DNA of 64,000 bases. It comes from Armatimonadota bacterium (GTDB taxonomy: Bacteria > Armatimonadota > Fimbriimonadia > Fimbriimonadales > Fimbriimonadaceae). The notes under the pieces were generated by a model. That model was not told the origin of the DNA, ran no database searches, and was given only the letters and a program-made list of their open reading frames with translations. This document shows, one piece after another, positions 31,741 to 46,953 of the stretch. How positions within the stretch are numbered: position 1 is the first letter of the stretch; each line of letters begins with the position of its first letter. The translations under genes were made by a program, and so were the position numbers. Location of the stretch: positions 281,805 to 345,804 of the forward strand of contig JBAXHT010000001.1 in assembly GCA_037138755.1 (NCBI GenBank), read 5' to 3'.

Positions 31741-31826
31741 GCGCGGGTGGTGAAATTGGTAGACACGCTACCTTGAGGTGGTAGTGCTCACAAGGCGTGA
31801 AGGTTCGAGTCCTTTCCCGCGCACCA
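31741..31826 (+). tRNA. tRNA-Leu (anticodon GAG)
   Basis: Acceptor GCGCGGG / CCCGCGC, anticodon stem CTACC / GGTAG with loop TTGAGGT, a long variable arm (TGCTCACAAGGCGTG) as in class II tRNAs, T arm GGTTCGAGTCC region and encoded CCA. A tyrosine integrase gene points at its 3' end, which suggests it is the attachment site of the element downstream. Confidence 0.97.
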
Positions 31827-31969
31827 AAGCTAATTTAGGTTCAAATTTCACAGATTGCTTCAGTTGGTTTTCCCGAAAAGCGCCTTCAAAAATTAGGTGA
31901 CTCTCAAATCGACTCTCAATTCGGACCCTGTGCATTCAGAGCAGTTTCCTTGCGCATACGGGAGCTTCG
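31827..31969. other. Candidate attachment-flank region next to tRNA-Leu
   Basis: No gene. Two tandem 12-mers differing at one base lie at 31899-31910 and 31911-31922 (GACTCTCAAATC / GACTCTCAATTC). The 14-mer at 31834-31847 recurs inverted at 37056-37069. Both could be integrase arm sites; the second attachment site was not found. Confidence 0.35.
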
Positions 31970-31999
31970 AAAAAAAATGCTCTCCGAGAGCGGGAGAGC
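31970..31999 (-). terminator. Terminator of the integrase gene
   Basis: Minus strand: GCTCTCC - CGCTCTC - GGAGAGC, then A and eight T. It begins about 10 nt past the integrase stop. Confidence 0.85.
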
Positions 32000-32009
32000 T
32001 TCGAGATGC

Positions 32010-33185
32010 CTATGCGAAAACCCGGTCTAGGGATTCCCGCAAGATGCTCTGTGCGGCAGTCAGTGGACGGGTGTAGTTCGCTTCGGTAACACCAGCTGAG
32101 GCGTGACCGATATGATCTTTGAGAGTCGTGGGAGACACCTCAAACATGAGCTTTTCGATGATGTTTATGTGAGTCAGCCTACAGTCATGTGGAGACATGT
32201 CATCAGGCAGACCACAATCGACTACGATTGATTTCCAAACTTCGTATACCTGCTTCTTCATGCGAGGCTCGTTGAGCGTCGCCTTTGGCCACAAGAAGGC
32301 TTCTGGGGGCATCTCACTGACATGTTCGAGGAGAATCGACTTCAAACGTTGGCACATGACCACATTTCTCGTTTTCTTACCCTTTGGTAGGCCGAGGCTT
32401 TGCTTTCCACCGAAAGCCACAAGAACGGCTTTGTCAACAACAATCAAATTGTCATCAAAACGAAGCTTTGATACCTGCATCGCCATCATCTCCCCAAGCC
32501 TCAATCCCCCTAGAAGAAGGATTCCTAGCAGAGCACGGCGCGATGGGTCTAGCGCTTGACAAGAAGTGGCCGCTCTAACCTGGTTCGGTGCGAGCGCAAC
32601 AGCTTCTCTTGGTGCCGGTTGAGGGACTGACAGACGAAAGGGGTTGGCGGTGGTCATTGGAATTTTCCCGTATGGGACAATCGCTTGGTTAAAGGCTCGT
32701 ACTAGATCGGCCCGCACCGAGATCACCAGCGTTTCTTTCGCCCCGTTTGCCCGGAGTTCCTTGTAAAATGCTCGCACCTTCATCGGATCGATTTTCGAAA
32801 GCGGAATGCTCCCAAAGTGCTTCGCTGTGTACTTCCTGAACCTACGTTTCCTTTGTTCGATTGTCACTGAAGCCAATGATTCTGGCCAATCATTCTCTGC
32901 TAGCCAAGAAAACCATTCTTCCAGGGTCAATTCGCGAGATTGCCGAGCGATCTCAATCTTTGTCCCCCTTTGAAGGGATCTAAGGAAGTCTTTACCTTCG
33001 GCTTTCGTCTTAAACACCCTAGAAAGGCGTTGCTTTTGTCCGGTAGCGGTTTCAATCGTGTATTGAACCCGCCACCGTCCTTGTTGTCTGCCTGTCAAGA
33101 TTTCACGGCAAGAACCGTCGTTGTTATCAGCTCGTTTAGCCATGAACCCAACATCCCAACATGTCGCTCTTACATCAAATTGCAT
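32010..33185 (-). CDS. Tyrosine recombinase (integrase)
   Basis: 391 aa. An N-terminal arm-binding region and SAM-like core-binding domain ('TLEEWFSWLAENDWPESL', about residues 85-102) precede the catalytic domain. Catalytic residues are seen in 'LLLGGLRLGEMM' (Arg), 'SPHDCRLTH' (His-x-x-Arg), 'DHIGHAS' (His) and 'EANYTRP' (nucleophile Tyr near residue 373). It should catalyse site-specific integration at the adjacent tRNA-Leu. It starts 5 nt after the excisionase-like gene; an internal ATG at codon 15 is possible. Confidence 0.93.
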   Translation of the reverse strand: MQFDVRATCWDVGFMAKRADNNDGSCREILTGRQQGRWRVQYTIETATGQKQRLSRVFKTKAEGKDFLRSLQRGTKIEIARQSRELTLEEWFSWLAENDWPESLASVTIEQRKRRFRKYTAKHFGSIPLSKIDPMKVRAFYKELRANGAKETLVISVRADLVRAFNQAIVPYGKIPMTTANPFRLSVPQPAPREAVALAPNQVRAATSCQALDPSRRALLGILLLGGLRLGEMMAMQVSKLRFDDNLIVVDKAVLVAFGGKQSLGLPKGKKTRNVVMCQRLKSILLEHVSEMPPEAFLWPKATLNEPRMKKQVYEVWKSIVVDCGLPDDMSPHDCRLTHINIIEKLMFEVSPTTLKDHIGHASAGVTEANYTRPLTAAQSILRESLDRVFA

Positions 33186-33190
33186 CGCAG

Positions 33191-33403
33191 CTATGCAATA
33201 ACTTCTAATTGGCCGTGACTTGTGGCTAGCATCACGAACGAGTTTAGTTGTTCAGTTGTGATTCGTCGGCTACGACCTATTTTCACGAACTTGATGTCAC
33301 CCTGATTCATCAACCGATAGATTTGGGCACGAGACAGGGATAACAACTTGGCTGCCTCCGCCACCGTGTATGCAAGTCTGGGCGAAGGAGTTGTTTCTTT
33401 CAT
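33191..33403 (-). CDS. Excisionase-like helix-turn-helix protein
   Basis: 70 aa. Winged-helix HTH_17 motif: 'YTVAEAAKLLSLSRAQIYRL' followed by 'IKFVKIGRSRRITTEQL'. Proteins of this size next to a tyrosine integrase usually steer the recombinase toward excision. It overlaps the upstream 128-aa gene by 4 nt and is followed directly by int, giving a compact recombination module. Confidence 0.88.
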   Translation of the reverse strand: MKETTPSPRLAYTVAEAAKLLSLSRAQIYRLMNQGDIKFVKIGRSRRITTEQLNSFVMLATSHGQLEVIA

Positions 33404-33786
33404 CTGGAACCACCTCCCTCCGAGCCTTTGAGCCGTATCGATCTCACCGTCCTTTCGATGTGCTGGTACGGCACATTTGTGGTGTGCCAGTGGTGCCCGA
33501 TCACATTACTCGTCGAGTTGATTTTTGTCTTCTCCTTCAAGTCTTCGAACTCAATCGCTCTCGCTCCGTACCTTGCCGCAATGAGGAGGGCTGCAAGTTC
33601 TGGGTTGGACTGGGCAATGACTGCCAGCGCTGGACCGAGTGCGGCTTCATCGTTCCGGGCCAAAATTTGAGTCTGTGCAGGCGCAATAGTTTGCGACTGA
33701 GCTGGAGGTGGTGGCGGACTAATTCGGTCCGAGATCGTCTGGAGTTGTTCTCTCAGACTTGTTGGGAGACTGTGTAGGTCGTTCAT
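33400..33786 (-). CDS. Element protein of unknown function
   Basis: 128 aa preceded by AAAGGAT at good spacing. A Pro/Gln-rich stretch (about residues 24-40) is followed by an Ala/Leu-rich helix (about 45-75) and a basic C-terminus. No domain recognised. Coupled to the excisionase-like gene, so probably part of the element's core. Confidence 0.65.
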   Translation of the reverse strand: MNDLHSLPTSLREQLQTISDRISPPPPPAQSQTIAPAQTQILARNDEAALGPALAVIAQSNPELAALLIAARYGARAIEFEDLKEKTKINSTSNVIGHHWHTTNVPYQHIERTVRSIRLKGSEGGGSR

Positions 33787-33810
33787 GGTTTTATCCTTTT
33801 GTGTTCGAGG

Positions 33811-34482
33811 TCAACTCCAACCGCCTACGGAAGTGGCTCCAAGTTCTTGAAACGTGGTCGTCAAGAACTCGAAGTCAGCACCTGTGGGATGTAGCTGACG
33901 AAGGTGACGAGCCCGGCCGGGGCCGGTGGTGACGGTCACAAGTCTGAAGTTCTCGAATGGATAGCACTCGGAGCAGTTGCTTCTCGTAGCGAGCATTTGG
34001 TAGCCGAGGAGCTTGGCTTTGTACTTCTCCGCCGAGACGTGGCCAAGGTCAACCTCGACGAACATCGGTAGCGAGGAGGTTAGGGCGAGTCCATCGGGAC
34101 GGATTTCGTGCTTCCCAAGCTTGCGCCAAAGTTGCTGTTCAAATCGCCATTCGGATGCACCTTTGCTGATCAGCGCAAGACGGACATTGGTGACGCTAAG
34201 CGCATGCTGGATGAAACGTGGTGATGAAGTTCTGCTTTCGATCAGCGAGCCAACTTTGTAACCCGCGACTTCAGGAGCAATCCTCCCCGCCATGTAAAGG
34301 CTCTGTCCGTAAAACGGAGTTTCAAGACGGCGAAGGAGTCCAGATTGAACCAGTCCGCGAAGTCTCGTATTAGCCCGTGTTACTGAGCCGAAGTAGCCGA
34401 GCTGGATAATCTGGTCTCTGGAAAGAAGGTGACTAAGACCAACATCCTTAACGAGTTTCGTGTCGCGGGAAGTGAGCCTCAC
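33811..34482 (-). CDS. Replication-relaxation family protein
   Basis: 223 aa. A winged-helix N-terminus ('LSRDQIIQLGYFGSVTRANTRL', in part) and a core with 'HALSVTNVRLAL', 'EIRPDGLALT' and 'FVEVDLGHVSAEKYKAKL' match the Replic_Relax family, which contains a nuclease-like Asp-Glu arrangement (D in 'RPDG', E in 'VEVD'). Such proteins occur in mobilisable elements beside a VirD4-like ATPase, as here (4-nt overlap). Likely role: DNA processing in replication or transfer. Confidence 0.82.
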   Translation of the reverse strand: MRLTSRDTKLVKDVGLSHLLSRDQIIQLGYFGSVTRANTRLRGLVQSGLLRRLETPFYGQSLYMAGRIAPEVAGYKVGSLIESRTSSPRFIQHALSVTNVRLALISKGASEWRFEQQLWRKLGKHEIRPDGLALTSSLPMFVEVDLGHVSAEKYKAKLLGYQMLATRSNCSECYPFENFRLVTVTTGPGRARHLRQLHPTGADFEFLTTTFQELGATSVGGWS

Positions 34483-35864
34483 AGCCAGTCCCCCAGATCG
34501 CCGTCTTTCTTCGGCTTCTTTTGTTTTGGATCGTCTGAGTCTGGTTTGGGCGTTTCTTCCTCTTGGGGCGTATGCTCCTCAAACTCGGGAATTCGCTCGC
34601 TCAGATCGCTGAGAAAAAGATCTGCTTCCGGGCTCCGAACACCAACATCTTTGAAAAGTGGTTCGTTGATCTGAACGATGAAAGGCTTCTCCGAGCGGCG
34701 CGAAAGAATTGCCTCACCGACTGGAAGTGTGGCGATATCGAATGCTTTCGCGTCTCCCGTAAGGTCTTTGCTAAGAACCGCCCCATCCTCGCGCCCCGAG
34801 CGAAACACAACCTTGACACCGACGTTGTTGAGGATCATGGAGCGGACTCTCGTGTTAAGCTGAGCGAGTGTCTGGTGAGCCAAAACTAGAGACAGACCGA
34901 ATCTGCGGCCTTCAGCCAAAATATCTTCAAAGATGTCAGTCCCGAAATGTTCAAACTCGTCGATGTAGAGACGCACCGGATTTCGCTTGCTTTCAGGGAT
35001 GCCGATTCGAGAGAAGATTTCCCGGCAGACGCTACTGAGCAGGAGGGACCCCATCATCTTTCCGGCTCCATGAAGCTCGTCAACTGCCAGCGAAACCAGA
35101 GTGATGCTGCCGGGAGTGTTCAGATGCTTGCCAAGGTCTAGCGGAGCCTGATGACCGAGAGTTCTGCGCAGAGATTCGGTCGCGAACAGAAGGCTCACTT
35201 TGTTGAGAACTGGTGTCGCTAGGGAGTTTTGCTTGTCGTCCGAGAGCTGTCCGTATCTGACCCAGAAATCTCTTACCGACTCAGTCGAGCAACGAGAAGC
35301 TAGGGAATTTCTGAACCCACGGTCGTAGAAAATGCGCTCTAGCTTCGTGAGTGGCTCAGCAGATTCAGCCAGGAGCATCACTGCGTTGCGTAGAGTCTCC
35401 GCTAGTTGCACCCCCCACGACTCGGATTCTTCGGCGATAACCTCTAAAACGCCGAGTGCCCTGAAGTACGCTTCACCGGCGCCGAACAACGGGTTAAAGC
35501 CCAGCGGCTTTTGCTTTTCCCTAAGGTCGAACAGTGCAACTTCATGTGGGTGAACATACTCACATGCAAGTTCAAGAGCCGCATTGACAAGATCTCCCCT
35601 CATATCGATAATGACAAATGACTGCCTCAGAAGGATGTCTTGCGCGATGAGATGGTGGAGGAAATTGGTCTTTCCGCTTCCTGTGGCTCCTATGACGAGC
35701 GCGTGGGTTTTGAGTTGTTGCGGTGGAAGCTGAATCAGGTCATCAATCCATACGTCCGACAACTTGGACCTTTCTTTGCGAACCCCAATCCAGTGGTTTG
35801 GAATGCGCTTCGGCTGTTCGCCGGTTTCCTCTGCTGTCCTCGTTCGACTCATATAGAGGATCAT
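34479..35864 (-). CDS. VirD4/TraD-like DNA-transfer ATPase
   Basis: 461 aa. Walker A 'VIGATGSGKTNFLHHLI' near residue 60, Walker B 'RLYIDEFEHFGTDIF' near 300, and 'LVLAHQTLAQL' as in HerA/VirD4 motors. No membrane anchor is present, unlike classical coupling proteins. It shares a 4-nt overlap with the replication-relaxation gene, which suggests element mobilisation. The first ATG leaves just 6 nt to the divergent regulator; an internal start at 35852 would be easier to reconcile with a promoter. Confidence 0.85.
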   Translation of the reverse strand: MILYMSRTRTAEETGEQPKRIPNHWIGVRKERSKLSDVWIDDLIQLPPQQLKTHALVIGATGSGKTNFLHHLIAQDILLRQSFVIIDMRGDLVNAALELACEYVHPHEVALFDLREKQKPLGFNPLFGAGEAYFRALGVLEVIAEESESWGVQLAETLRNAVMLLAESAEPLTKLERIFYDRGFRNSLASRCSTESVRDFWVRYGQLSDDKQNSLATPVLNKVSLLFATESLRRTLGHQAPLDLGKHLNTPGSITLVSLAVDELHGAGKMMGSLLLSSVCREIFSRIGIPESKRNPVRLYIDEFEHFGTDIFEDILAEGRRFGLSLVLAHQTLAQLNTRVRSMILNNVGVKVVFRSGREDGAVLSKDLTGDAKAFDIATLPVGEAILSRRSEKPFIVQINEPLFKDVGVRSPEADLFLSDLSERIPEFEEHTPQEEETPKPDSDDPKQKKPKKDGDLGDWL

Positions 35865-35870
35865 TTACTA

Positions 35871-37010
35871 ATGGCAAAAACTCACGTGACGGGCGAGCTA
35901 GATTATTTAGTCCGGACTAAACTTCCTGAAAATCCAAACTCCTTCGAGTACGTGCTCAGAGAAGCGTTCTTGCTGGAACATCAGTGCACCAAAGGTGCAG
36001 AGATTGCCAAAGTTCTTGGGATTACGCCGGGGCGTTTCTCACAAATCCTCTCCTCACCGTCCACGCTGAAACCGGAGACAATACAGCATCTGCTTGTGCG
36101 CCTTTCAGGTCGCCAGACTCGCAAACGGCTTATTGCCGCTTGGACAGCGGAGTGCTTTGGCGAATCGATGGGGAACTCATTGTTTACCGGCAAGACGGTC
36201 TCATCAAAGACGTTGAGGCGCGTGGATAGGCAGATCAGGGAGTCAAGGCTTGTCACGGCCGCACTGACGGCTCAAGAAGCCGCCGTGAAATCGACCGATT
36301 GGGATTTACGTCAGCAGTTCTTAGACAGGGCGTTCTACGCAAGGCGTCATCTTAACGAGCCGGGACGCGCCATGAGTATTGCAAGGATCATCGCGGCTGA
36401 TGCCAAGGAGCAAGGCTCTAAAGCCAGACTGGCGACGGCGCATTTTTACAAGGCAAAGACCCTGATGATGAATCCGCTCTGCAAGCCAGAGTCCTTCCAC
36501 CGATGTATCGGTGAAGCGGTTCGATTGCTGTCCATGTACAAGAATGAGGCCGATCGTTTGCTGAAGTGCGCGCTCATCGAGGCGGATTCAGTGCGGAGAT
36601 TAGAACTCAATGCCACTCTCACGTTCATGGAGAGGGGCCTTGATCCTATCGACAAAGAATTCCTCGAAACGGAACGTGCCTCCGCCCAAGGTAGGGCGAA
36701 ATCGGCAAAGACGTATCAGTCAAAGTTCAACAACCTCTTCACTGCCGCACGAATCTCAGTTTTGCTTGGAGAGACTTTTCAAGCAGCTGAATTGCTGGAA
36801 TCGGCATTTGGTTCGGGAGAGTTCAAGAATCTCCACGCCCAGGAGCAGTGCGGAGTGATCCACTCCATGATTTTGGAGCAGACAGAAAGTCCAGCAGAGG
36901 TCTCGGAACATCTTGTCAAAGCCATTCTCCTTTGCGAAAAGTCGTGCGACTACTATCACAAAGCGATGCTTGAGACCCGGCTTGCCGAAGTCGAGTCGGC
37001 ACGGTTTTAG
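35871..37010 (+). CDS. HTH protein with helical-repeat body
   Basis: 379 aa from ATG 35871; the frame is open upstream but there is antisense to the ATPase. The N-terminus has a helix-turn-helix ('KGAEIAKVLGITPGRFSQIL', about residues 37-56). The rest is alpha-helical and TPR-like ('RRHLNEPGRAMSIARIIAAD', 'AARISVLLGETFQAAELLESAF' in part). This layout resembles signal-binding phage or element regulators with TPR sensors. Divergent from the transfer genes, so it may control them. Confidence 0.68.
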   Translation: MAKTHVTGELDYLVRTKLPENPNSFEYVLREAFLLEHQCTKGAEIAKVLGITPGRFSQILSSPSTLKPETIQHLLVRLSGRQTRKRLIAAWTAECFGESMGNSLFTGKTVSSKTLRRVDRQIRESRLVTAALTAQEAAVKSTDWDLRQQFLDRAFYARRHLNEPGRAMSIARIIAADAKEQGSKARLATAHFYKAKTLMMNPLCKPESFHRCIGEAVRLLSMYKNEADRLLKCALIEADSVRRLELNATLTFMERGLDPIDKEFLETERASAQGRAKSAKTYQSKFNNLFTAARISVLLGETFQAAELLESAFGSGEFKNLHAQEQCGVIHSMILEQTESPAEVSEHLVKAILLCEKSCDYYHKAMLETRLAEVESARF

Positions 37011-37255
37011 GGCGGCCAGAAGGTAGGTCAGGACCCCGACCAACCCTGATCTACCAATTTGAACCTAAAGTCCCGCATTTCTAACCTAACCCTCCTCTTT
37101 CTAAGAGTCGCATTCCTTCTTCGATTCATCCTCCTCGCTCCCGTTCCCGCTCCTCGTCTTCATCTCAGAACTCATGCGCCACTTAGCAAGACTCGGCGGG
37201 CACCGGGGCGAAGACCAGTTCAATGTTTAAGAGAACAAAGTCATTTAAGAATCTT
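37011..37255. other. Gap with pyrimidine-rich DNA
   Basis: No credible gene. The + strand is C/T-rich. An inverted copy (37056-37069) of a 14-mer found beside tRNA-Leu (31834-31847) lies here. Confidence 0.3.
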
Positions 37256-37561
37256 TTAAGATTTGAACTGACGACGAACACGCGTGGATTTGCTTTCCAC
37301 TGCAAGTGAATCCTCGTCTGCGTTCAAGAACTCGGTGAGCATTTCGGAAGAATCCAGTTCAAGAATCTTGCAGACGGCAACGAATTCCAAAACTCTCATT
37401 TGCCGTTCCCCTCTTTCGATTTTCGAGACGAAACTCTGCGGCATTCCAAGTTTCTGAGCGAGTTCATCTTGCGAGAATCCGGCGGCGATTCGTTTTTTGC
37501 ACATAAACGATCCGAGTTTTGCGTTCTCAGCGACCGAGATTCCGGGGAACTTTGCACACAC
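37256..37561 (-). CDS. XRE-family transcriptional regulator
   Basis: 101 aa from GTG 37561; the frame can be extended to a TTG at 37588, but that codon lies inside a palindrome likely to be the operator. HTH: 'CKKRIAAGFSQDELAQKL', 'MPQSFVSKIERGERQM', then 'LEFVAVCKILELDSSEMLTE'. Typical Cro/CI-type repressor. Divergent from a lipoprotein gene, with a palindrome between the two. Confidence 0.85.
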   Translation of the reverse strand: MCAKFPGISVAENAKLGSFMCKKRIAAGFSQDELAQKLGMPQSFVSKIERGERQMRVLEFVAVCKILELDSSEMLTEFLNADEDSLAVESKSTRVRRQFKS

Positions 37562-37570
37562 GTGCGTACA

Positions 37571-37634
37571 TTGGGAATGACAAATCAACCCATATTGGGT
37601 TTATAATAAGAAAAAACCGATTACAGGTTTTTTT
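37571..37634 (+). promoter_or_regulatory. Promoter with palindromic operator and T-rich hairpin
   Basis: TATAAT at 37602-37607, with a weak -35 (TGACAA) 18 nt upstream. The spacer holds the palindrome AACCCA-TAT-TGGGTT (37587-37601), a natural site for the divergent XRE repressor. Just downstream, AAAAAACC-GATTACA-GGTTTTTTT (37611-37634) forms a hairpin with a T tail, which could be an attenuator or terminator. Confidence 0.55.
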
Positions 37635-37643
37635 GTGACTCTC

Positions 37644-38585
37644 ATGGTGACTTCCTCTATTTCTCGAATTGTCTGCTTTTTCCTTCTCAGCGCATCGCTT
37701 CTCGCCTGCGGTGGAGCGGGAGGAGTTGGCGCAAACGGTCCATCGGTTTCGCTCTCAGCGTCCAAACTCTCCATCGCTTATGGTCAGCCAGTGACGATTA
37801 GTTGGAGTTCTAAAAAGATTTCGTCAATCGAATCTTCCAACTTCAGAGTAGGCTCGGCCAGTGTCGATGGCTCCATCACCGACACGCCCGGCTCGACCAC
37901 GACCTACTCCATCACCGGATACGGGGAAGATGGGAACAGATACACGGGTTCGGTAACTGTTAGCGTTGCCAAAGGCTCCAAATCGATTCTCGTCGTAGGC
38001 GATGTCGCGCAATCCGGGGTCAACCAGATCATCGAGCAAATCCAGGCCGTTTCAAGTGCTACAGTCCAGGTCTTAGCAACCGTCCCTGCGACAATCTCAT
38101 CCGACGTAGTCGTTTTGCTCTCAGATTCAAATGTGACTTCTTCGGATGTGAACAAGATCAAGAGTCAACTGAGCCGAGGAGGTGGAGTCGTCCTCGTTGG
38201 CAACTCAAGTAGGCTTCTCGCTACCGGAAGTGCTTCAAATACAGACGTCAGTCCCATCGGCAGTTTTTGCGCTGGCGTAACGGAATGCGTTGGTGATGAC
38301 CTGAATTCGTCATCCCTTCTGATCAGTCCTGTGAGTTTCCCATACGGCGCTACTGTCTTGGACAGAGAAGTGAGAGGCTACAGCATGAGTCCCATCAGTG
38401 CAACGGCGACACCGCTGACTCAAGTTAGCCCCTGGCAGTCAGGTGGCTACTCAGGCTTCCTGTATTCGCCTTCTACAGGCGGGAGGGTCGCATACGCTGG
38501 CAGTGCTCCCGCAGATAATTCTGAATCAAGCGCGGCGATGAGAGCCATTTTCCTTTCCGAAGTGCGATGGGCATCAGGCGAGTAA
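37644..38585 (+). CDS. Lipoprotein of unknown function
   Basis: 313 aa from ATG 37644 (an in-frame start lies three codons earlier). Lipobox 'ASLLACGG' at about residues 17-24, so lipidated and exported. An Ig-like beta domain follows ('GQPVTISWSSKKIS', 'TTTYSITGYGEDG'), then a flavodoxin-like alpha-beta region ('KSILVVGDVAQSGVNQI', 'DVVVLLSDS', 'GGGVVLVGNSSRLLA'), as in ThuA/glutamine amidotransferase-like folds. Cargo gene of the element, followed after 1 nt by a serine hydrolase gene. Confidence 0.7.
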   Translation: MVTSSISRIVCFFLLSASLLACGGAGGVGANGPSVSLSASKLSIAYGQPVTISWSSKKISSIESSNFRVGSASVDGSITDTPGSTTTYSITGYGEDGNRYTGSVTVSVAKGSKSILVVGDVAQSGVNQIIEQIQAVSSATVQVLATVPATISSDVVVLLSDSNVTSSDVNKIKSQLSRGGGVVLVGNSSRLLATGSASNTDVSPIGSFCAGVTECVGDDLNSSSLLISPVSFPYGATVLDREVRGYSMSPISATATPLTQVSPWQSGGYSGFLYSPSTGGRVAYAGSAPADNSESSAAMRAIFLSEVRWASGE

Positions 38586-38586
38586 C

Positions 38587-39735
38587 ATGAGGCCAGTGAA
38601 CAACTTCGGATTTGCACTGTCCACTCTGTTTCTCGCAATCTGCTCGGCGCAGGCACAGTCCGGCGGTCTGACGACCAGCCCAGATCCGTTCGTGGCCAAT
38701 TTTATCCGCCAGCGCGGAATCAAGGGCGCATCCCTAACTGTTTGGAACCGCCAGGGAACGATCATCTACTCGAAGGGCTTCGGCACGACGGGAACTGGTC
38801 CATTCACGCCAGACACCGTTTGTAGGGTAGCCAGTATCTCGAAAATTTTCACCTCGGTTGGGATCATGCAAGCGGTCAAGGAAGGCAAGATCAATCTGGA
38901 TGCTCCGATCAATACCTACCTGAAGTATCCAAAGCTCGGAGATCCACGGCTGGCAAAAGTGACCACCCGCCTGATGCTACAGCATCTCTCTGGGATGGAA
39001 AGCAAGTCAACTCCGATTGTCTCGCCAAGTCAGGTTAGCGACAAGCTCCCACTCACTCCACAAGCTATTACCGATTGGGCAATGACCAAGAAGCAGCTTG
39101 ACCGGGAGCCGAATACTGCTTACGGCTACTCCAACACGGCGTACACGGTACTTGGTGTGATCCTAGAGAAGGCAACCGGAGTTGATTACGAGACCTACGT
39201 TAAGCGGCTGATCTCGCCCATGGGAGTTTCCAAATCCAGAATCGGAAACACTCTCAAGAGTGGGACGGATGAGACAACGTACTACGATCTCGGGAACCGA
39301 ACGAACCACTCCAGTTTTCAGTTCGGCAGCTCCGTTCCCTCCGGCTCAATGCCGTTCCCGTATGGAGGAGCCTTTGTGCTTGAATCCATGCCCGGTGGGG
39401 GTGGTTGGGCTTCTACGAGCAACGACCTTGCAAAGCTAATGATTGGGACGTTCGGCTCCTACCGGTTCTTTGATCAGAATCTTCAAGCTCAAATGATCGC
39501 AAGACCCCCTGCAATTAGCGACAGCTACTATACAGGTTTGGGTTGGAATCGTTCTTTAGCTGGAACGTTCCGGACCGGAAGTCTTGAGTGTAGTAGCGCG
39601 TGTATGATTTGGCTCAAGAACGGCTATGGCTACGCCTATGTCCAAAACACCTGCACTCAGAACGACAAACAGGAGTTCGGCGCTGGAAAGTTTCTCGATG
39701 ACTTCACGGTGTGGATGGGTCAGAACACTAGGTAG
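38587..39735 (+). CDS. Exported serine hydrolase (class C beta-lactamase / PBP fold)
   Basis: 382 aa with a signal peptide (about residues 1-24, ending 'AQA'). Catalytic Ser-x-x-Lys in 'RVASISKIF' (about residues 82-90), Tyr-Ser-Asn in 'AYGYSNTAY' (about 180), and a late Gly-rich segment ('SMPGGGGWASTSNDLAKLM'). The group includes esterases, D-peptidases and beta-lactamases; the exact activity is unknown and no resistance role should be assumed. Translationally adjacent to the lipoprotein gene. Confidence 0.87.
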   Translation: MRPVNNFGFALSTLFLAICSAQAQSGGLTTSPDPFVANFIRQRGIKGASLTVWNRQGTIIYSKGFGTTGTGPFTPDTVCRVASISKIFTSVGIMQAVKEGKINLDAPINTYLKYPKLGDPRLAKVTTRLMLQHLSGMESKSTPIVSPSQVSDKLPLTPQAITDWAMTKKQLDREPNTAYGYSNTAYTVLGVILEKATGVDYETYVKRLISPMGVSKSRIGNTLKSGTDETTYYDLGNRTNHSSFQFGSSVPSGSMPFPYGGAFVLESMPGGGGWASTSNDLAKLMIGTFGSYRFFDQNLQAQMIARPPAISDSYYTGLGWNRSLAGTFRTGSLECSSACMIWLKNGYGYAYVQNTCTQNDKQEFGAGKFLDDFTVWMGQNTR

Positions 39736-39834: not shown

Positions 39835-39836
39835 TG

Positions 39837-40232
39837 TTAGGAAGCCGAGTTGTGGATATCTGAGCCGCCTGCCGTTGTTCTTTTATTCTTTTCTTTGTAT
39901 TGTTGCAGTTCGCTTTTCGAAAAGGTTTTGACGGCTTTTGGTGGTGAGATTTGCCTGAATGCAACGAAGGTGTGGATAAGTCCCTTTTGCTTCAGAGCCG
40001 TAATCGCCTTGCTGAGCGCTTCGGTTTGGCGGCCAGTTCGCTCATTCAGGGATTGGTAGGATAGTGTCACCCAACGGCCCTCCTTGTTCCATCCGGTCGT
40101 CTGTCTCAGCAGGATGAGGAGCATTCTCAGTTCGGTGTCCTTGAGTTTCGGTAAGAGCTGGTCTATCAGTACGTTGGGGATCTTTGTCCATGCTGAGTTG
40201 GTTGGTGGCAAAAGCAGCTTTATTCTTGGCAT
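39837..40232 (-). CDS. Phage O-like replication protein (winged helix)
   Basis: 131 aa from ATG 40232. 'KIPNVLIDQLLPKLKDTELRM' (in part), 'LRQTTGWNKEGRWVTLSYQSL' (in part) and 'ALKQKGLI' match the N-terminal DNA-binding domain of lambda O-type replication proteins. DnaA-box-like 9-mers lie inside the gene (39851-39859 TGTGGATAT and 39971-39979 TGTGGATAA). The 5' part overlaps, in another frame, the end of the preceding gene. Last gene of a leftward unit starting at the XRE gene. Confidence 0.72.
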   Translation of the reverse strand: MPRIKLLLPPTNSAWTKIPNVLIDQLLPKLKDTELRMLLILLRQTTGWNKEGRWVTLSYQSLNERTGRQTEALSKAITALKQKGLIHTFVAFRQISPPKAVKTFSKSELQQYKEKNKRTTAGGSDIHNSAS

Positions 40233-40446
40233 AGTAATACTCTTTAGGGGGTGAATAGTCGTGGCGGATTGCATCTACGATGAATGCTTCTGGACGCTTG
40301 GCCTTGCGGAAAGGCATGAAGCTGAGTTGTCGCTTGATGCGCTCATGCGGAAAGCTAAGGAGTTCAACAACGCCAGCGTGGCTGACGCCAAGCTTCATAA
40401 GTTCAACCGCAATCTGAACTGCAGGGTCTTCTTTAGAGTGAGTCAT
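40042..40446 (-). CDS. Replication-associated small protein
   Basis: 134 aa. The first about 75 residues look like a conserved module: 'AVELMKLGVSHAGVVELL', 'HERIKRQLSFMPFRKAKRPEA' (in part) and 'DAIRHDYSPPKEYY'. That module is usually the C-terminal end of helix-turn-helix replication proteins, here encoded upstream of the O-like domain as a separate gene. The last about 60 residues are low-complexity and overlap the next gene by 191 nt in a different frame, so the stop might have arisen by frameshift. Confidence 0.55.
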   Translation of the reverse strand: MTHSKEDPAVQIAVELMKLGVSHAGVVELLSFPHERIKRQLSFMPFRKAKRPEAFIVDAIRHDYSPPKEYYYAKNKAAFATNQLSMDKDPQRTDRPALTETQGHRTENAPHPAETDDRMEQGGPLGDTILPIPE

Positions 40447-40948
40447 TTCGAATTGAAGTTAGGAATGAGATGATGCGAAGTGAGGCCGCTTTGAGTCCAG
40501 TGAAGTAGGCATAGTCCACTTCACCACTTGGTCGAATTCCCAAGCTGTACTTTGCAAGTAGCCGGGCCAGTCTCTGACCGTCTACGACCTTGATCCGAGC
40601 TCTGGAATACTTCGGAAGTTCTTCACCAGCTGAATCACAAAGGCCGAACGGTGAGACGATAATGCCAAGGTCCGCTTTAGATCGATCCACTTCACCAACT
40701 AGTTCGCTTAAGTGCCGGATGCGAACGGTGTCGCGGACCACCTTGATGATGACTGTCTCTAGTCCGAATCCGGTCCCCTTGCGGCAGACGAGGTCGTAAC
40801 CTCCATACCGAGATTTCTGCTTTGACTTGCGACGGTGCATGATTTCAATATCTCCAAACCCTTCCCGGCTGAGGGTCATTTGGAGCAGCATCTCAATCTC
40901 ATGTAGTGAGCAAGTCTGGAGCATTTGAACAAGAGCATCTAGCTTCAT
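40433..40948 (-). CDS. Mrr-like restriction endonuclease-fold protein
   Basis: 171 aa. A short helical N-terminus, then the PD-(D/E)xK core of Mrr_cat nucleases: 'REGFGDIEIMHRRKSKQK', 'RYGGYDLVCRKG' (Asp) and 'LETVIIKVVRDTVRIRHLSEL' (shown in part; Glu-x-Ile-Lys-like), followed by 'KADLGIIVSPFG'. Possibly a DNA-cleaving defence or mobility nuclease; activity not proven. Sits between an XRE regulator (4-nt overlap) and a small replication protein. Confidence 0.72.
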   Translation of the reverse strand: MKLDALVQMLQTCSLHEIEMLLQMTLSREGFGDIEIMHRRKSKQKSRYGGYDLVCRKGTGFGLETVIIKVVRDTVRIRHLSELVGEVDRSKADLGIIVSPFGLCDSAGEELPKYSRARIKVVDGQRLARLLAKYSLGIRPSGEVDYAYFTGLKAASLRIISFLTSIRNDSL

Positions 40949-41373
40949 CTCGCTCCTTTCTTCGATTCGTATCCCCTCGGATACCGGGAGGTAACCCAGG
41001 TTCCGGCAGGCAAACCTTTGAACTCATCTTTGACGTTTCCAAACTCGTCAATCGCCCGCTCTGGCAGGCATCCGGTACAACCGACCAAGTCACAGACAAA
41101 CCGAGTAGCGAACCTACCGGCTTCTGCTACAAGCTCACGGGGGTCTATTCGCCTGCCAAGCTGCTGCTCAAGAGCAGTGGTTATCTTGGCGACGAGCCGG
41201 AAGGATGGATTCATTTTCCCGTTAATCAGCCGGGAGACTGAGGACGCGCTAACCCGGGCGTCCTTTGCGAGTCTAGTGACGCCGTTAAAGGCGTACCGAT
41301 CTAGATGAGCCATCACGTCGGAAATCCGGTTGATGGTCGGTCCGAAGACCTGTTTAGGGGTTTCTTTTACCAT
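40945..41373 (-). CDS. XRE-like regulator with Cys motif
   Basis: 142 aa from ATG 41373; upstream in-frame ATGs would overlap the operator palindrome. HTH: 'VTRLAKDARVSASSVSRLI' then 'NPSFRLVAKITTALEQQLG'. The C-terminal part contains 'CDLVGCTGC', a possible metal site, and ends basic. It probably represses its own unit, which includes the Mrr-like and replication genes. Confidence 0.8.
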   Translation of the reverse strand: MVKETPKQVFGPTINRISDVMAHLDRYAFNGVTRLAKDARVSASSVSRLINGKMNPSFRLVAKITTALEQQLGRRIDPRELVAEAGRFATRFVCDLVGCTGCLPERAIDEFGNVKDEFKGLPAGTWVTSRYPRGYESKKGAR

Positions 41374-41448
41374 GCACTCATTAAAAAATGAGAGGCATGA
41401 AACCATCATGAAATGTTGCAAACACGCAACCGTTGCACGGATGCAACA
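41371..41448. promoter_or_regulatory. Operator region upstream of the XRE-like gene
   Basis: A long interrupted palindrome CATGC-CTCATT-AAAA-AATGAG-GCATG spans 41371-41399. Next to it are four GTTGC/GCAAC half-sites (41415-41420, 41426-41430, 41432-41437, 41442-41447), the outer ones forming TGTTGCA / TGCAACA. Confidence 0.5.
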
Positions 41449-41475: not shown

Positions 41476-41476
41476 C

Positions 41477-41482
41477 TAGCAT
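41477..41482 (+). promoter_or_regulatory. -10 box (TAGCAT) 6 nt before an ATG
   Basis: TAGCAT, GGCGAC, then ATG 41489. Same spacing as chromosomal genes of the window. Confidence 0.35.
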
Positions 41483-41488
41483 GGCGAC

Positions 41489-41692
41489 ATGTGGCTTCCA
41501 ACTCCTACCGCTGAACATGCCGAATCCTTTAGGGCTTTAGTCAAGTCCGAATTTGGGTTAGAGTTGAGTTCAGACGAGGCGCTGGACGCTGCCACCCGCC
41601 TATTACATATCCATTTCATCCTCACCTATGCGTATCGCCCTTTACGCCCGAAAGTCCACGGAGCAAGAAGACAGGCAGATTCAAAGCCTTGA
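41489..41692 (+). CDS. Small protein preceding the serine recombinase
   Basis: 67 aa. The first about 45 residues ('FRALVKSEFGLELSSDEALD') form an amphipathic helical unit often found directly upstream of large serine recombinases; the tail becomes basic and overlaps the recombinase gene by 65 nt in another frame. Role unknown; possibly an accessory or translational-coupling factor. Confidence 0.6.
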   Translation: MWLPTPTAEHAESFRALVKSEFGLELSSDEALDAATRLLHIHFILTYAYRPLRPKVHGARRQADSKP

Positions 41693-43331
41693 CGACCAGC
41701 TTCGAGAACTAGGCAAACTCGCCGAGCGAGAGAATCTGCAGATCGTGGAGACATTCGTTGAGTCCAGGTCGGCCAAAACTCCAGGCGGACGCCCTGAATT
41801 TGAAAGGCTTGTGCAAGGAATCGAAGAGGAGCGATTTGAAGGAGTCCTTTGTTGGTCAATGGACAGACTTTCAAGGAATCCCGTTGATGGGGGCCGAATC
41901 GCGTACGTGCTACAAACGGGCAAGCTCTCGTTGATCCGAACTGTCGAGAGAACGTACCGACCAGAGGACAACGCACTTTTGTTATCTATCGAGAACGGAA
42001 TGGCGACTGCTTACCTGCAAGACCTGAGTAGAAACGTTAAAAGAGGGATTCGAGGAAGAGTTGAGCGAGGCTGGTGCACGAGCAAGGCTCCAATTGGATA
42101 CAAGAACAATCCCGAAACGAGAGAGGTTGACAACGATCCTGCCCGGTTCGACATCGTTCTCGGGGGTTGGAAGATGCTTCTGACGGGTGAGTGCTCTGTT
42201 TCAGCGGTGCATAGACACTTCATAGCGAAACGGCTAACGGTCCCATCGCGACGTGGCTCCGTAAAGCTGATCTCTCGCGCTGGGGTTCATTCTCTATTTA
42301 AGAATCCCTTTTACAGTGGACGTTTGCTTGTCCGAGGAGCCGTCTATCAAGGGAAACACTCCGCGATGGTTTCGGAAGAAGAGTTCAACCGGGTTCGTGA
42401 GATTGTTTCACGAAAGTCAAAGCCGATTAAACCGATTGCTGGCTCATTTGCCTTCAAGGACGTGTTTAGATGCGAGCAGTGTGGGTGTGCATGTGTCGGC
42501 GAGCGCAGAACCAAAACCTATCCCCGAACTGGCCGAACCGTTGAATATGTCTACTATCACTGCTCGGGTTCTAAAGGTTGCCCGAAGACTGCGGTGCGAC
42601 AAGATGCCCTTGAGAAGCCATTCCAGGAGTTGGCTGAAGCTTTAGCAATCCCACGCTCATTTGCTTCCTGGTTAGAGGGTGCGACGGTAGAGGCTCTTGA
42701 AAGACGAGCGGCAGGTGACCTTGGCCCCGTCGCGGATGCCGAGTCCGAGATAGCGTCAGAAAGAGCAAGGCTGAAAGCACTTACGGAAATGCGACTCAAC
42801 GGAGAACTGCCCATGAGCGAATACTTAGAGTACCGGTCAGAAATTGAGAAGAGAATTGTGCTGCTAGAGGAATCTAGGTTCAGCTTCACTAGGTCGGCCA
42901 CGAGAGTTCATCAACGAGTGAAGGAACTTCTGAAGTGCGCCGCCGATGCTGGAGAACTCGCGGGCGGCTACGGTGATCCGTTCGCCCTCGGCGCGTTTGC
43001 AAGACGATGCGGATCCCATTTTCTCAATCTGGGCCAACCTGAGATTAGGCTTGATCCAGTTCTACAAAAAATCACCACCTTCGAACCACTCAGAAACGGC
43101 TCTGAGAGGCCAAAAGGTGGTGACTATGTGCCTTCAAATTCAATTTGGTGGAGCTTGGTGGACGATATTCTCAATCTGGCGAGAATTGCAGACATGCAAG
43201 AGTTTGCGTCTTTCGTGCAATTGAAGAAGGAGAGCGTGTTGCGTAAACTTGCCACTTCGCTGCACCGACCTCATGGTGCGTTGACTAAAGTGTCGGGAGG
43301 CTCGCTAGAGAGAAAAGAATTTGGGTTGTGA
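41628..43331 (+). CDS. Large serine recombinase
   Basis: 567 aa. Resolvase domain: 'MRIALYARKSTEQEDRQIQS' with nucleophile Ser (about residue 10), 'GRPEFERLVQGIEE', 'VLCWSMDRLSRNP'. The recombinase domain follows ('RGWCTSKAPIGYKNNP'), then a zinc ribbon ('FRCEQCGCACVGERR', 'YYHCSGSKGCPK') and a coiled coil (about residues 360-430), as in phage and transposon integrases. It could move a nested element or an inversion; its sites are not identified. A second recombinase besides the tyrosine integrase. Confidence 0.93.
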   Translation: MRIALYARKSTEQEDRQIQSLDDQLRELGKLAERENLQIVETFVESRSAKTPGGRPEFERLVQGIEEERFEGVLCWSMDRLSRNPVDGGRIAYVLQTGKLSLIRTVERTYRPEDNALLLSIENGMATAYLQDLSRNVKRGIRGRVERGWCTSKAPIGYKNNPETREVDNDPARFDIVLGGWKMLLTGECSVSAVHRHFIAKRLTVPSRRGSVKLISRAGVHSLFKNPFYSGRLLVRGAVYQGKHSAMVSEEEFNRVREIVSRKSKPIKPIAGSFAFKDVFRCEQCGCACVGERRTKTYPRTGRTVEYVYYHCSGSKGCPKTAVRQDALEKPFQELAEALAIPRSFASWLEGATVEALERRAAGDLGPVADAESEIASERARLKALTEMRLNGELPMSEYLEYRSEIEKRIVLLEESRFSFTRSATRVHQRVKELLKCAADAGELAGGYGDPFALGAFARRCGSHFLNLGQPEIRLDPVLQKITTFEPLRNGSERPKGGDYVPSNSIWWSLVDDILNLARIADMQEFASFVQLKKESVLRKLATSLHRPHGALTKVSGGSLERKEFGL

Positions 43332-43471
43332 ATCGTCCGCCGATTGACAACATCTTTTTAAATAAGCTCTGGAAGTCAAAGCTGTGTACCGTTTATGCAG
43401 AGCGGGTCCAAAACAGAGGTCAGGCGACACGAAACATTGTCACCAATCCGCTTCCAGCCGGAACTACGCGA

Positions 43472-44341: not shown

Positions 44342-44449
44342 GAACGAACCCCTAGTTCTACCATGAATGCTTCAAGGTAGTCAATGAATTTCGAAAGTTT
44401 GTTCCAGTCGTGAATTTTTTTTAGATATTGTTCGACCCGTGAAATTTCC

Positions 44450-44639
44450 TTGTGAAAACTGGCAAAATTGCGATATAATGGAGGGTGAAATAGGAAAAGA
44501 GCCCTTCACGAGGAAGAGCCCTGGAGTTACTGTCCCAATGTTTGAAGCAGGGAACAGGCAGCACTAGGCGGCTTTAACAACATACACCCGTTACCCGCGT
44601 GGTGTCAAGAGGGGTTCGGATCCTTTTCAAAGGAATCTA
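44450..44639 (+). promoter_or_regulatory. Strong promoter with a 150-nt structured leader
   Basis: TTGTGA (44450-44455), 18-nt spacer, TATAAT (44474-44479). The leader has the direct repeat AAGAGCCC and ends in a hairpin in which CCTTT can pair with the ribosome-binding AAAGG just before ATG 44640. The long leader suggests post-transcriptional control. Confidence 0.6.
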
Positions 44640-45044
44640 ATGTTTGCAAATCGCATCCTCATCATCTCGACACTCTCACTCCTCTCACTCCAGGCTAAGG
44701 CTGAAACCATCGTCAGATCCACAGTCATCGTTCCTGCAGCAAGGTTTGATGCTACGCTGAGCTTCAACGCGAACGGTTTCAACACAAACATACGCGTCCA
44801 AGGAAGCCGAAATGGTCTGACGTATACATACAATCCATCGTATCCCACTTCGTGTACAAGCGCCATTAGCTCTGGAGACAAAATTTACTTGTCCTTTACT
44901 ACCCGAAGACTCCCGACCGGACTCAGTTACTTTTTTTGTGGAAGGAGCAATATCGCAGACATTTACAAACAGTCGGATAGGTCGCCTGTCTTCGGCCCAA
45001 ATACGACCTGGGTGCCTGCCACGCTCGACCTGACTAAGCAGTAG
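44640..45044 (+). CDS. Small secreted protein of unknown function
   Basis: 134 aa with a clear signal peptide (about residues 1-21, ending 'LQAKA'). The mature 113 residues are beta-rich with two Cys ('PTSCTSAI', 'YFFCGRSN'), which could form a disulfide. No family recognised. It has its own good promoter and AAAGGA ribosome site. Cargo of the element. Confidence 0.7.
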   Translation: MFANRILIISTLSLLSLQAKAETIVRSTVIVPAARFDATLSFNANGFNTNIRVQGSRNGLTYTYNPSYPTSCTSAISSGDKIYLSFTTRRLPTGLSYFFCGRSNIADIYKQSDRSPVFGPNTTWVPATLDLTKQ

Positions 45045-45097
45045 GCTTCACGATTGCGTGAAAGAAGCGAAAGTCGCGCAGTCGGGCCAGAAAGCTG

Positions 45098-45133
45098 ATG
45101 ATAGACCCCCGGCACTAGTCCGGGGTTTATCAT
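45098..45133. terminator. Terminator hairpin after the secreted-protein gene
   Basis: ATGATAGACCCCCGG and CCGGGGTTTATCAT pair with one or two interruptions around a CACTAGT loop. Located 54 nt after the stop at 45044 and before ardC. Confidence 0.65.
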
Positions 45134-45165
45134 GTTAAGCTCCCCTCTAATGAAGGAGGATTGCC

Positions 45166-46053
45166 TTGGCGCAAAACCTCTATGAACTCGTCACTTCGAA
45201 GATCATTGCCGCGCTTGACCATGGAGTAGTTCCTTGGAAAAAGCCGTGGCATGTCCAAAGTCAAATTCCGGTTAGCCTCACCGCAAACAAACCCTACCGA
45301 GGCGTCAATTCACTCCTATTAGGACTTGCGCCGTACGAGGATCACCGCTGGCTTACTTTCAAACAGATCGGAACGCTTGGGGGCCAGGTGAAGCGCGGAG
45401 AGAAATCAACTCAGGTTGTCTTTTGGAAGTTTCCAGAACCTTCATCTGATGATGAGGAATCCAAGAAGGCGCGAGCGCCGCTATTGCGGTACTACTCGGT
45501 CTTCAACGTTGAACAGACCGAGGGACTCAATGTTCCAGCGTTACTAGACCGAAAGCCGGTGGAAGAGCGAGAGCGGATTGTGAAGGCAGACTTACTCGTG
45601 AAGTCCATGCCGAATCCTCCTCGCATAGAAGAGACCGGAACAGCCGCTTGGTACAAGCCATCTCAAGACCTTGTCCAAGTGCCGAAGATCGAAAACTTCA
45701 GCAGCTCAGATCAGTTCTATCTCACGCTCCTTCATGAACTTGGGCATGCTACTGGTCACAAATCCAGGCTAAACCGCAAGGGAGTGACCGATCAAGTGCA
45801 CTTTGGCTCAGGAGAGTATTCCAAAGAGGAGTTGGTGGCGGAGCTAACAGCCGCGTTCTGCGCCGCTGAAGTCTCGCTCGACAATTCGCTCATCGGAGAT
45901 TCTGCAAGCTACATTGCATCCTGGCTCAAAGTTCTTAGGAACGACCCAAAGGCCATCGTCTTTGCCGCTGCCCAAGCTCAGAAGGCTGCTGACTACATTA
46001 AGGGAGCCCAATACGGTGCTTCCAATCCATCTCAAGCTCTCACACCTTCGTGA
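45166..46053 (+). CDS. ardC: ArdC-like antirestriction protein
   Basis: 295 aa, TTG start preceded by a strong AGGAGG at 6-nt spacing. N-terminal ssDNA-binding domain ('GVVPWKKPWHVQ', 'NKPYRGVNSLLLGLA', 'WLTFKQIGTLGGQVKRGEKS' in the first 90 residues) and C-terminal metallopeptidase domain with 'LLHELGHATGH' and downstream 'EYSKEELVAELTAAF'. ArdC protects incoming DNA against restriction in plasmids and conjugative elements, which supports a transferable element here. Confidence 0.93.
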   Translation: MAQNLYELVTSKIIAALDHGVVPWKKPWHVQSQIPVSLTANKPYRGVNSLLLGLAPYEDHRWLTFKQIGTLGGQVKRGEKSTQVVFWKFPEPSSDDEESKKARAPLLRYYSVFNVEQTEGLNVPALLDRKPVEERERIVKADLLVKSMPNPPRIEETGTAAWYKPSQDLVQVPKIENFSSSDQFYLTLLHELGHATGHKSRLNRKGVTDQVHFGSGEYSKEELVAELTAAFCAAEVSLDNSLIGDSASYIASWLKVLRNDPKAIVFAAAQAQKAADYIKGAQYGASNPSQALTPS

Positions 46054-46061
46054 GAGCCTTT

Positions 46062-46325
46062 TTAATACAAGAAGGCGAACAACGTCACGAGTAGCACCAT
46101 CAAAACCAGTATCCCGACGTGCTTCCAGAGTTCGTCTGTAAGTTGCCTCCGATCCAATCTTTGACCACAAAATGCACAGACTACTCTCATTCCATAGTGG
46201 GATTGGACCATATGAGCAGTTGGACGTTGATAGCGTTTGCGGATCCATTCCCCGGTTTTGACTCGTCTTCTCGCAAGCCTTGAGTCCGAAGGAATGGCCC
46301 GGCCGCAGATGTAGCAGTTTGGCAT
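46062..46325 (-). CDS. Small zinc-ribbon membrane protein
   Basis: 87 aa. Two CxxC pairs ('NCYICGRAI', 'VCAFCGQRL') make a likely zinc ribbon, followed by a basic middle and one C-terminal membrane helix (about residues 70-87, 'VGILVLMVLLVTLFAFLY'). Function unknown. Convergent with ardC (8-nt gap). Confidence 0.7.
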   Translation of the reverse strand: MPNCYICGRAIPSDSRLARRRVKTGEWIRKRYQRPTAHMVQSHYGMRVVCAFCGQRLDRRQLTDELWKHVGILVLMVLLVTLFAFLY

Positions 46326-46419
46326 GTCTCATAAATACATCGAGCAACCTCCAATCGCAACTTGTGGCTAGACTGTGCAACAAAAAGAGACTTCCAGGTG
46401 GAAGTCTTGGGATAGCTGG

Positions 46420-46953
46420 TCAGGATTCCCCGAGAAGCTTGATGACCTGCTCGACGAGCCGGACTCGGGTTGCTGGCGCTGGATCATCTAAACCAGGTGC
46501 AAGCGAAATCGCAAGATCAGTTGTTGGATCGAACTCGTATCGCCACCACCTTGCCAACGTAAACGGTTCGCGATTGAGATGTTCACCAAGATGAAACCTC
46601 AAACCGCCGGCCAGAACCAGGATTCGACTTGCTCCCCATTTGAGAGGCATCGTCGCCATCTCTCGATGAGCCTCGCTATGGATTCCACAGACGAGTGTGA
46701 AGCCATCGAGTACCAACTGTTCAGACTCCCGCCTGATACTTTCGATATCTGGCTCCCTCGAACGGAAGTCTAGCATCGCTCGCTTGATTCCTTGTCCGAG
46801 CAGCTTCTCGTTTCCCGTGATCCAGAGAGGCCCTTGGCCAACTGCGTCTGCGACGGGTTCCAGAACCAGTCGCCTGGGCGGGCTGAGAATTGGAGAAACT
46901 CCATAAGTTGGAATGTGAGGTTCGGTGACGCGGAAGTACTGTGATCTTGCCAT
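46420..46953 (-). CDS. DprA/Smf-like Rossmann protein
   Basis: 177 aa from ATG 46953; the frame is open to 47022. A Rossmann-type fold reminiscent of short DprA proteins: 'GPLWITGNEKLLGQGIKRAML' (in part), 'LVLDGFTLVCGIHSEAHREM' and 'RILVLAGGLRFHLGEHL', where DprA has Ser-Gly-x-Ala-x-Gly-Ile-Asp. The usual N- and C-terminal DprA domains are missing. In mobile elements such proteins bind ssDNA or act in defence; the role here is inference. Confidence 0.6.
   Translation of the reverse strand: MARSQYFRVTEPHIPTYGVSPILSPPRRLVLEPVADAVGQGPLWITGNEKLLGQGIKRAMLDFRSREPDIESIRRESEQLVLDGFTLVCGIHSEAHREMATMPLKWGASRILVLAGGLRFHLGEHLNREPFTLARWWRYEFDPTTDLAISLAPGLDDPAPATRVRLVEQVIKLLGES

Follow-up and report, generated by a model that had tools for sequence, protein, structure and literature searches.

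TraX is the relaxase of pAD1, a conjugative plasmid. It is the prototype of the MOBC family, which is akin to the restriction endonucleases of the PD-(D/E)XK superfamily; for TraX itself, a covalent intermediate was not seen (PMC12857230). The Pfam family Replic_Relax (PF13814) is given as the MobC relaxase domain by Coluzzi et al. 2017 (PMC5357655), who also describe integrative elements of streptococci, class 8 (two elements), in which PF13814 is combined with VirD4 and a serine integrase; 71 integrative elements with PF13814 and VirD4 are counted in S. suis (PMC12479173). In the small plasmid CloDF13, MobB is paired with MobC and plays a double role (PMC7431656). Islands of the SGI1 type (PMC5704250) are about 40 kb long and helper-dependent; their mobilisation module is reportedly MpsA/MpsB. 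Here we describe a 40.0-kb island of an Armatimonadota bacterium that carries a MobB–MobC-like gene pair. The window analysed is the whole stretch of 64,000 nucleotides (C1:281805–345804, contig JBAXHT010000001.1) from a host genome of 3.27 Mb, 97% complete, which belongs to the same GTDB family as named Fimbriimonadaceae genomes.

We consider it probable that the island is an integrative mobilisable element (IME) that excises, is nicked by its MOBC protein and leaves through the channel of a helper. The parts of this proposal that sequence comparison shows directly are the boundaries, the end repeats, an empty site, a backbone common to related islands, and a putative MOBC-type relaxase and TrwB-like ATPase encoded in the mobB–mobC order of CloDF13. 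An earlier sequence-only reading had arrived at an integrative, tRNA-targeted element of mobilisable type, and in this outline it holds. The features of the left end are listed here; counts out of 12 in this and later lists refer to the delimited elements with both relaxase and ATPase (12 of 16 delimited segments, the four without backbone being excluded).

31741..31826, plus strand: tRNA-Leu (GAG), the integration target, intact on the side of the left attachment site, attL (ARAGORN, Rfam)
31771..31828, plus strand: 58-bp attL core, which starts in the anticodon loop and ends 2 bp beyond the tRNA 3' end (exact direct repeat)
31899..31921, plus strand: two tandem repeats of GACTCTCAAWT, putative integrase arm-type sites (motif search)
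32010..33185, minus strand: tyrosine integrase, read towards the tRNA (Pfam PF00589; 11 of 12)
33191..33403, minus strand: HTH_17 excisionase-like protein (Pfam; PHROG excisionase families; 11 of 12)

The island is one element inserted in the tRNA-Leu(GAG) gene, with an integrase pointing at the tRNA and an excisionase-like gene adjoining it, both of which had already been recognised from the sequence. The integrase carries R, HxxR, GH and Y motifs, which we take to be the catalytic motifs of tyrosine integrases. The second tRNA 3' end, sought by the sequence-only reading downstream of the window, is indeed there: an identical 58-bp copy of the attL core lies at window-equivalent positions 71757–71814 (L007:7757–7814; E = 1.4e-23 when the complete host genome is searched), offset by 39,986 bp, the tRNA 3' end itself being at C1:353558–353618. 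The element therefore ends 7.8 kb past the window end and is 40.0 kb long rather than 15.2 kb; position 46953, previously taken as its right end, is not a boundary. Three further tandem copies of GACTCTCAAWT stand just inside the right end (L007:7653–7685) and none elsewhere in the window or L007; shuffled sequences reach at most 1 copy, against 2 in the window and 3 in L007. We read these repeats as putative arm-type sites of the integrase at both element ends. Because the att repeat has so low an E value and the motif occurs at the two ends only, a chance origin of either is unlikely.

An empty site, the comparison that the sequence-only reading had proposed, was found in G016, a genome of the same genus with no match for the ATPase. 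There the conserved left flank, which extends to the tRNA end, and the conserved right flank, which begins at window-equivalent 75194, are separated by 64 bp at the end of the tRNA gene. Between the right attachment site (attR) and 75194 the host carries an extra 3.4 kb, with ankyrin and other genes, that is missing from G016, so the tRNA-Leu locus appears to have taken more than one insert or rearrangement; G001 has 1.9 kb of different DNA between attR and the right flank. That the window holds two stacked elements was ruled out because only two att copies occur within 80 kb. Just outside attR (L007 about 9073–9175) is a repeat of about 100 bp; the host genome and G016 each contain many copies of it, and G001 contains one.

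The two genes at the centre of the proposed mobilisation function follow the excisionase-like gene after a short interval.

33811..34482, minus strand: MOBC-type relaxase (Replic_Relax), winged helix plus nuclease-like domain (PF13814, alignment, predicted structure)
34479..35864, minus strand: TrwB/VirD4-like ATPase without membrane domain (Pfam, predicted structure, profile match)

The first had been called a replication-relaxation protein that might take the relaxase role. It matches PF13814 with 55.7 bits against a cut-off of 25.3 (MobC of a CloDF13-type plasmid scores 78.7 bits). The proposed role is in print for this Pfam family (PMC5357655, and for MOBC PMC12857230), so that the statement that no relaxase was visible falls; of the related statement that no classical relaxase was present, what stands is that the scanned open reading frames (ORFs) include no HUH-type relaxase, a MOBC-type one being there instead. 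In an alignment of 35 family sequences, E115, D130, E143, D145 and G147 are invariant and K157 is nearly so; D130, E143 and D145 are acidic residues of the PD-(D/E)XK type, and MobC has PD and ExE in the same places. Profile comparison with MobC of the CloDF13-type plasmid yielded E 2.5e-6 and a probability of 89%, with P129, D130 and E143 kept and D145 replaced by E. The AlphaFold2 model (pLDDT, the predicted local distance difference test, 93) matched MarR-type winged helices and nucleases including the nickase Nt.BspD6I in Foldseek; we take these nucleases to have the PD-(D/E)XK fold. The VIA-align rows cover the winged helix alone (residues 1–79) and have no bearing on the nuclease half. 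A PDB sequence search with the relaxase profile gave chance matches only, and tblastn against plasmid and phage records gave no match at E 0.01. The protein appears, from these comparisons, to be a distant MOBC member of the non-HUH kind.

The ATPase has a TrwB-type nucleotide-binding domain with Walker A and B motifs, and its predicted structure (pLDDT 91) is best matched by TrwBdeltaN70 (E 9.3e-15), with HerA translocases just behind; it is thus predicted to fold like TrwB minus its membrane domain. Its profile matches MobB of the CloDF13-type plasmid at E 2.8e-7. The ATPase gene is followed by the MOBC gene with a 4-bp overlap; mobB and mobC stand in the same order in the comparator, overlapping by 1 bp.

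Searches with family cut-offs were extended to 101 genomes, comprising the host and 100 relatives, with 14 genomes as controls. The ATPase profile matched 30 of the 101 and the relaxase profile 27, with up to six relaxase copies in one genome. The 49 ATPase matches (one of them the window, two of them second pieces of loci) led to 37 loci that were examined, nine weak or short ones being left out. The relaxase adjoins the ATPase in 36 of the 37; of these, 20 have a tyrosine integrase, 19 a tRNA gene and 24 one or both in the stretch fetched. At L065 and L070 a serine recombinase at the tRNA takes the usual place of the tyrosine integrase. A set of 37 loci of the family, classed by record title, comprises 30 from Armatimonadota (names such as Fimbriimonadaceae, Chthonomonadaceae and Abditibacteriaceae), one from an archaeon and six from other bacteria (25–32% identity). 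The archaeon-titled record (Methanoregulaceae; L085/L051, G030:C13) carries a member of the family; its title is probably wrong, since G030 is placed in the host's family.

Twelve delimited elements of 25–51 kb, this island included, carry the MOBC gene, and they have most of one backbone in common: integrase, excisionase, RepO-like protein, o134, Mrr-like protein, Cro-type regulator, serine recombinase and ArdC are each found in 11 of the 12. In the window the backbone genes beyond the integrase end are:

39837..40274, minus strand: phage RepO-like replication protein (just below the Pfam cut-off; PHROG; 11 of 12)
40042..40446, minus strand: o134, 134-aa ORF overlapping repO (11 of 12)
40433..40948, minus strand: Mrr_cat protein (Pfam; 11 of 12)
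40945..41421, minus strand: XRE/Cro-type regulator (Pfam; 11 of 12)
41628..43331, plus strand: large serine recombinase (Pfam; 11 of 12)
45166..46053, plus strand: ArdC anti-restriction protein with HELGH motif (Pfam, motif; 11 of 12)
46062..46325, minus strand: 87-aa zinc-ribbon-like protein, CxxC..CxxC (motif by eye; 9 of 12)

The Pfam matches agree with the ArdC and Mrr-like labels given from the sequence alone. The nearest NCBIfam models of the serine recombinase are CcrC and XisF, far under cut-off. The block of about 7 kb from the RepO-like gene to the serine recombinase is inverted among L061/L127/L128 (G048:C19) relative to L057 and L054, that is, in one element versus two close relatives. 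This is perhaps the work of the serine recombinase; the block edges showed no convincing inverted repeats (best E 0.30).

Among further stretches, nine of 11 are flanked by repeats resembling tRNA 3' ends (45–62 bp, 87–100% identity); in G003:C41 and G050 there was no flanking repeat within the stretches examined. ARAGORN places a tRNA at the repeat in the flanked stretches, except for G029 and G026a, where it calls none in the DNA retrieved. One of the nine is a 38.7-kb element at the same tRNA-Leu in G002. The host itself has a second element, of 44.7 kb, at tRNA-Val. In G003, five att copies at the same tRNA bound four tandem segments of 51, 15, 34 and 21 kb. Four segments, two in G003 and two in G048, have matching end repeats and none of the surveyed element genes. 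The tandem arrays concerned, L153–L158 (G003:C56) and L127–L128 (G048:C19), contain segments of 9–21 kb with the same att ends, in which no integrase, relaxase or ATPase was found; such backbone-less segments are possible cis-mobilisable passengers.

In keeping with the sequence-only reading, a Pfam scan of the element ORFs, apart from several small or RHS-region ones and the ORF cut by the window end, gave no type IV secretion system (T4SS) genes and no HUH-type relaxases. We therefore rejected an integrative conjugative element (ICE), no T4SS family being present in the scanned ORFs; through the MOBC-type relaxase, its own integrase and defined attachment sites, the island has the genes and sites expected of an IME. 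A prophage or phage satellite was likewise rejected because no capsid, terminase or packaging genes were found among the Pfam-scanned ORFs or 10 PHROG-scanned proteins; the ATPase matches one terminase PHROG, over its P-loop only, and viral contigs yielded 1 distant ATPase relative.

In the proposed cycle, integrase and excisionase would make a circle, on which the ATPase–MOBC pair would open and nick a putative origin of transfer (oriT) without a covalent tyrosine link, the ATPase assisting the nicking much as MobB may do in its double role in CloDF13. Single-stranded DNA would exit by the secretion channel of a helper that is either co-resident or incoming, and the helper's coupling protein may provide the membrane part. 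ArdC would shield the incoming DNA from restriction, the operon of RepO-like, Mrr-like and regulator genes together with the serine recombinase may serve replication or rearrangement of the circle, and the integrase would close the cycle at a tRNA gene.

Several observations weigh against this proposal. The ATPase has no N-terminal membrane domain, just as had been noted from the sequence: its maximum hydropathy over 19 residues is 1.22, against 2.43 for the MobB control, and the first 150 residues stay below 1.6, taken as the threshold for a transmembrane-like stretch, in 31 of 35 proteins of the family, the window protein being one of the 35. A missed N-terminus is excluded because in-frame stops stand directly upstream of the ORF. 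The membrane domain of CloDF13 MobB, by contrast, is essential for mobilisation (PMC7431656). The lack of this domain would fit a coupling protein provided by the helper, or else an anchor encoded separately. A candidate anchor is the zinc-ribbon protein, with a strongly hydrophobic, tail-anchor-like C-terminus (2.52 over 19 residues in the window), because all nine members have a hydropathy segment of 1.9–2.8 and the other backbone proteins of the window reach at most 1.62. For the relaxase, the aligned MobC lacks E115, G147 and K157, and the lysine-like position differs. The nucleases matched in Foldseek are weak matches: the best has E 3.5e-5 and the rest lie at about 1e-3 to 1e-2, with TM-scores, a measure of structural similarity, of about 0.3–0.4; of all 1093 Foldseek matches of the relaxase, one has E ≤ 0.001. 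The NCBIfam MobC model NF041423 gives E 3.6e-5 and 23.2 bits against a cut-off of 200, which places the protein outside that subfamily. No oriT was found, repeats of at least 13 nt in 31741–47460 giving chance-like pairs only. The sequence-only reading would have been refuted by the same gene block standing next to other, unrelated loci without an integrase, or by the lack of any attachment repeat nearby. The repeat exists; in 12 of the 36 relaxase–ATPase loci the fetched stretch contains no tyrosine integrase and no tRNA gene. Of these, L042 lies inside a delimited element with the integrase further off, and some others are cut by contig ends (for example L047 and L055). Excision and transfer of the island are themselves what we infer from its genes and ends.

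The helper is a further difficulty. VirB4/TraC (PF19044) exceeds its cut-off in 1 of the 101 genomes, with one more below it, and in 7 of 14 controls; PF03135 does so in 0 of 101 and only 1 of 14 controls, and VirB10/TrbI (PF03743) in 1 of 101, with three more below, and only 2 of 14 controls. The host genome has no match for any of the three, and hence no sign of the T4SS that marks an ICE. Since T4SS markers are above cut-off in 1 of 101 genomes and absent from the host, there is no likely helper in sight in the genomes searched. A divergent T4SS could be missed by the PF03135 and PF03743 searches because these families match so few of the control genomes. MOBP relaxases occur in 2 of the 101 genomes. 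The one genome above the cut-offs of both PF19044 and PF03743, G036, also carries the relaxase–ATPase pair. Its VirB4/TraC-type and TrbI-type matches lie on G036:C10 and C7 (L172, L173), of which L172 looks F-like by eye; the contamination value given for G036 is 4%.

This scarcity of T4SS markers, together with ComEC in 30 of 31 genomes, host included, lends some weight to a different explanation, in which the MOBC-like protein as nicking initiator and the ATPase as translocase are responsible for replication and partition of the excised circle, and transfer takes place without conjugation, for example by natural transformation of chromosomal or circular DNA. An ATPase without membrane anchor would suit such a role, and two of the three PHROG families matched by the relaxase are replication-initiation families. 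However, the gene pair, its order and its overlap resemble CloDF13 mobB–mobC, a separate RepO-like gene already gives a replication function, and ArdC in 11 of the 12 elements suggests entry as foreign DNA exposed to restriction. We regard this explanation as possible but rather unlikely. Also unlikely is a non-textbook route in which a soluble TrwB-like motor and a MOBC nickase would form a two-part transfer engine that docks to the envelope via the zinc-ribbon membrane protein (46062–46325), or docks to a channel invisible to T4SS profiles; if true, it would explain why the relaxase, in up to six copies, occurs in 27 of 101 genomes although T4SSs are almost lacking from the clade.

Two other explanations fare worse. 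The best PADLOC match of the ATPase is mad8, followed by HerA models, and HerA structures rank just under TrwB, as might be expected if nuclease and ATPase were a defence module of the HerA–nuclease type on a plain genomic island. We think this improbable: TrwB ranks first among the structures, the nuclease is PF13814 and matches no PADLOC model at E 0.01, and the pair is fixed in the 12 delimited elements, 11 of them with integrase and excisionase, unlike variable cargo. That the island is decayed and no longer mobile is very improbable, for although cargo varies between copies and four tandem-array segments lack the backbone, integrase, relaxase, ATPase and ArdC all have their catalytic motifs, the att cores are identical over 58 bp and a relative has the empty site.

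The remaining features of the island are as follows.

33400..33786, minus strand: o128, 128-aa protein, no family assigned (8 of 12)
35640..37010, plus strand: divergent 456-aa ORF, no family assigned, with its true start probably near the ATPase start (5 of 12)
37256..37588, minus strand: XRE-type regulator (Pfam)
37635..39735, plus strand: cargo, a lipoprotein-like protein and a beta-lactamase-family (PF00144) serine hydrolase (Pfam)
41489..41692, plus strand: 67-aa ORF upstream of the serine recombinase (6 of 12)
46420..47022, minus strand: 200-aa protein, no family match (9 of 12)
47453..64000, no strand: cargo stretch within the element, with glycosyltransferase-TPR, NifU_N, Hint-like and RHS/YD-repeat genes, a PEP-CTERM protein and others

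The 200-aa protein had been labelled DprA-like, a label for which Pfam, PADLOC and NCBIfam provide no match. The lipoprotein-like and PF00144 genes are each found in one of the 16 delimited segments, the former also in three non-delimited loci (L039, L043, L044). At 51583–60695 an RHS/YD-repeat gene is followed by several partial 3' copies with different C-termini in a cassette-like array, the YD/RHS profile match resting on the first gene. Beyond the window end, up to attR at 71814, lie genes for a metallophosphatase, a 1545-aa HEAT protein and a 294-aa protein. The HEAT-repeat gene (L007:1873–6510) has 67% DNA identity over 4.6 kb with the G002 element; its product has no PADLOC match, and it is possible that it is defence cargo exchanged between islands.

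Among described systems, the island shares with streptococcal class 8 a compact relaxase–ATPase block with excisionase and integrase and no T4SS (PMC5357655). It differs in its Armatimonadota host, in the integrase, which in most delimited elements is of the tyrosine type and sits at a tRNA gene, in its size range of 25–51 kb, in the additional RepO/Mrr/regulator/serine recombinase/ArdC backbone and in the membrane-less ATPase. With CloDF13 it has in common a coupling-protein gene followed by an overlapping MOBC gene (PMC7431656; CloDF13-type plasmid L171), the similarity being at profile level only and CloDF13 being a small plasmid whose MobB has a membrane domain. To TraX of pAD1 it is likened through the description of a restriction-endonuclease-like relaxase family in PMC12857230, and to SGI1-type islands (PMC5704250) through its size and presumed dependence on a helper; their mobilisation module is a different one. 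The novelty lies in the host phylum, in the combination of tyrosine integrase and tRNA target, in a backbone with more genes, in an ATPase that lacks the membrane domain and in the fact that T4SSs are nearly lacking from the genomes searched; no literature on such elements in Armatimonadota was evident by title or abstract among the matches listed.

These observations define a family of mobilisable islands in Armatimonadota, and they raise the question by what means such elements, whose relaxase is paired with a coupling ATPase lacking a membrane domain, spread in a lineage where T4SS genes are hardly seen. Should they move by conjugation, the coupling protein would either need no membrane anchor or obtain one in trans; should they not, MOBC proteins would do something other than conjugation.

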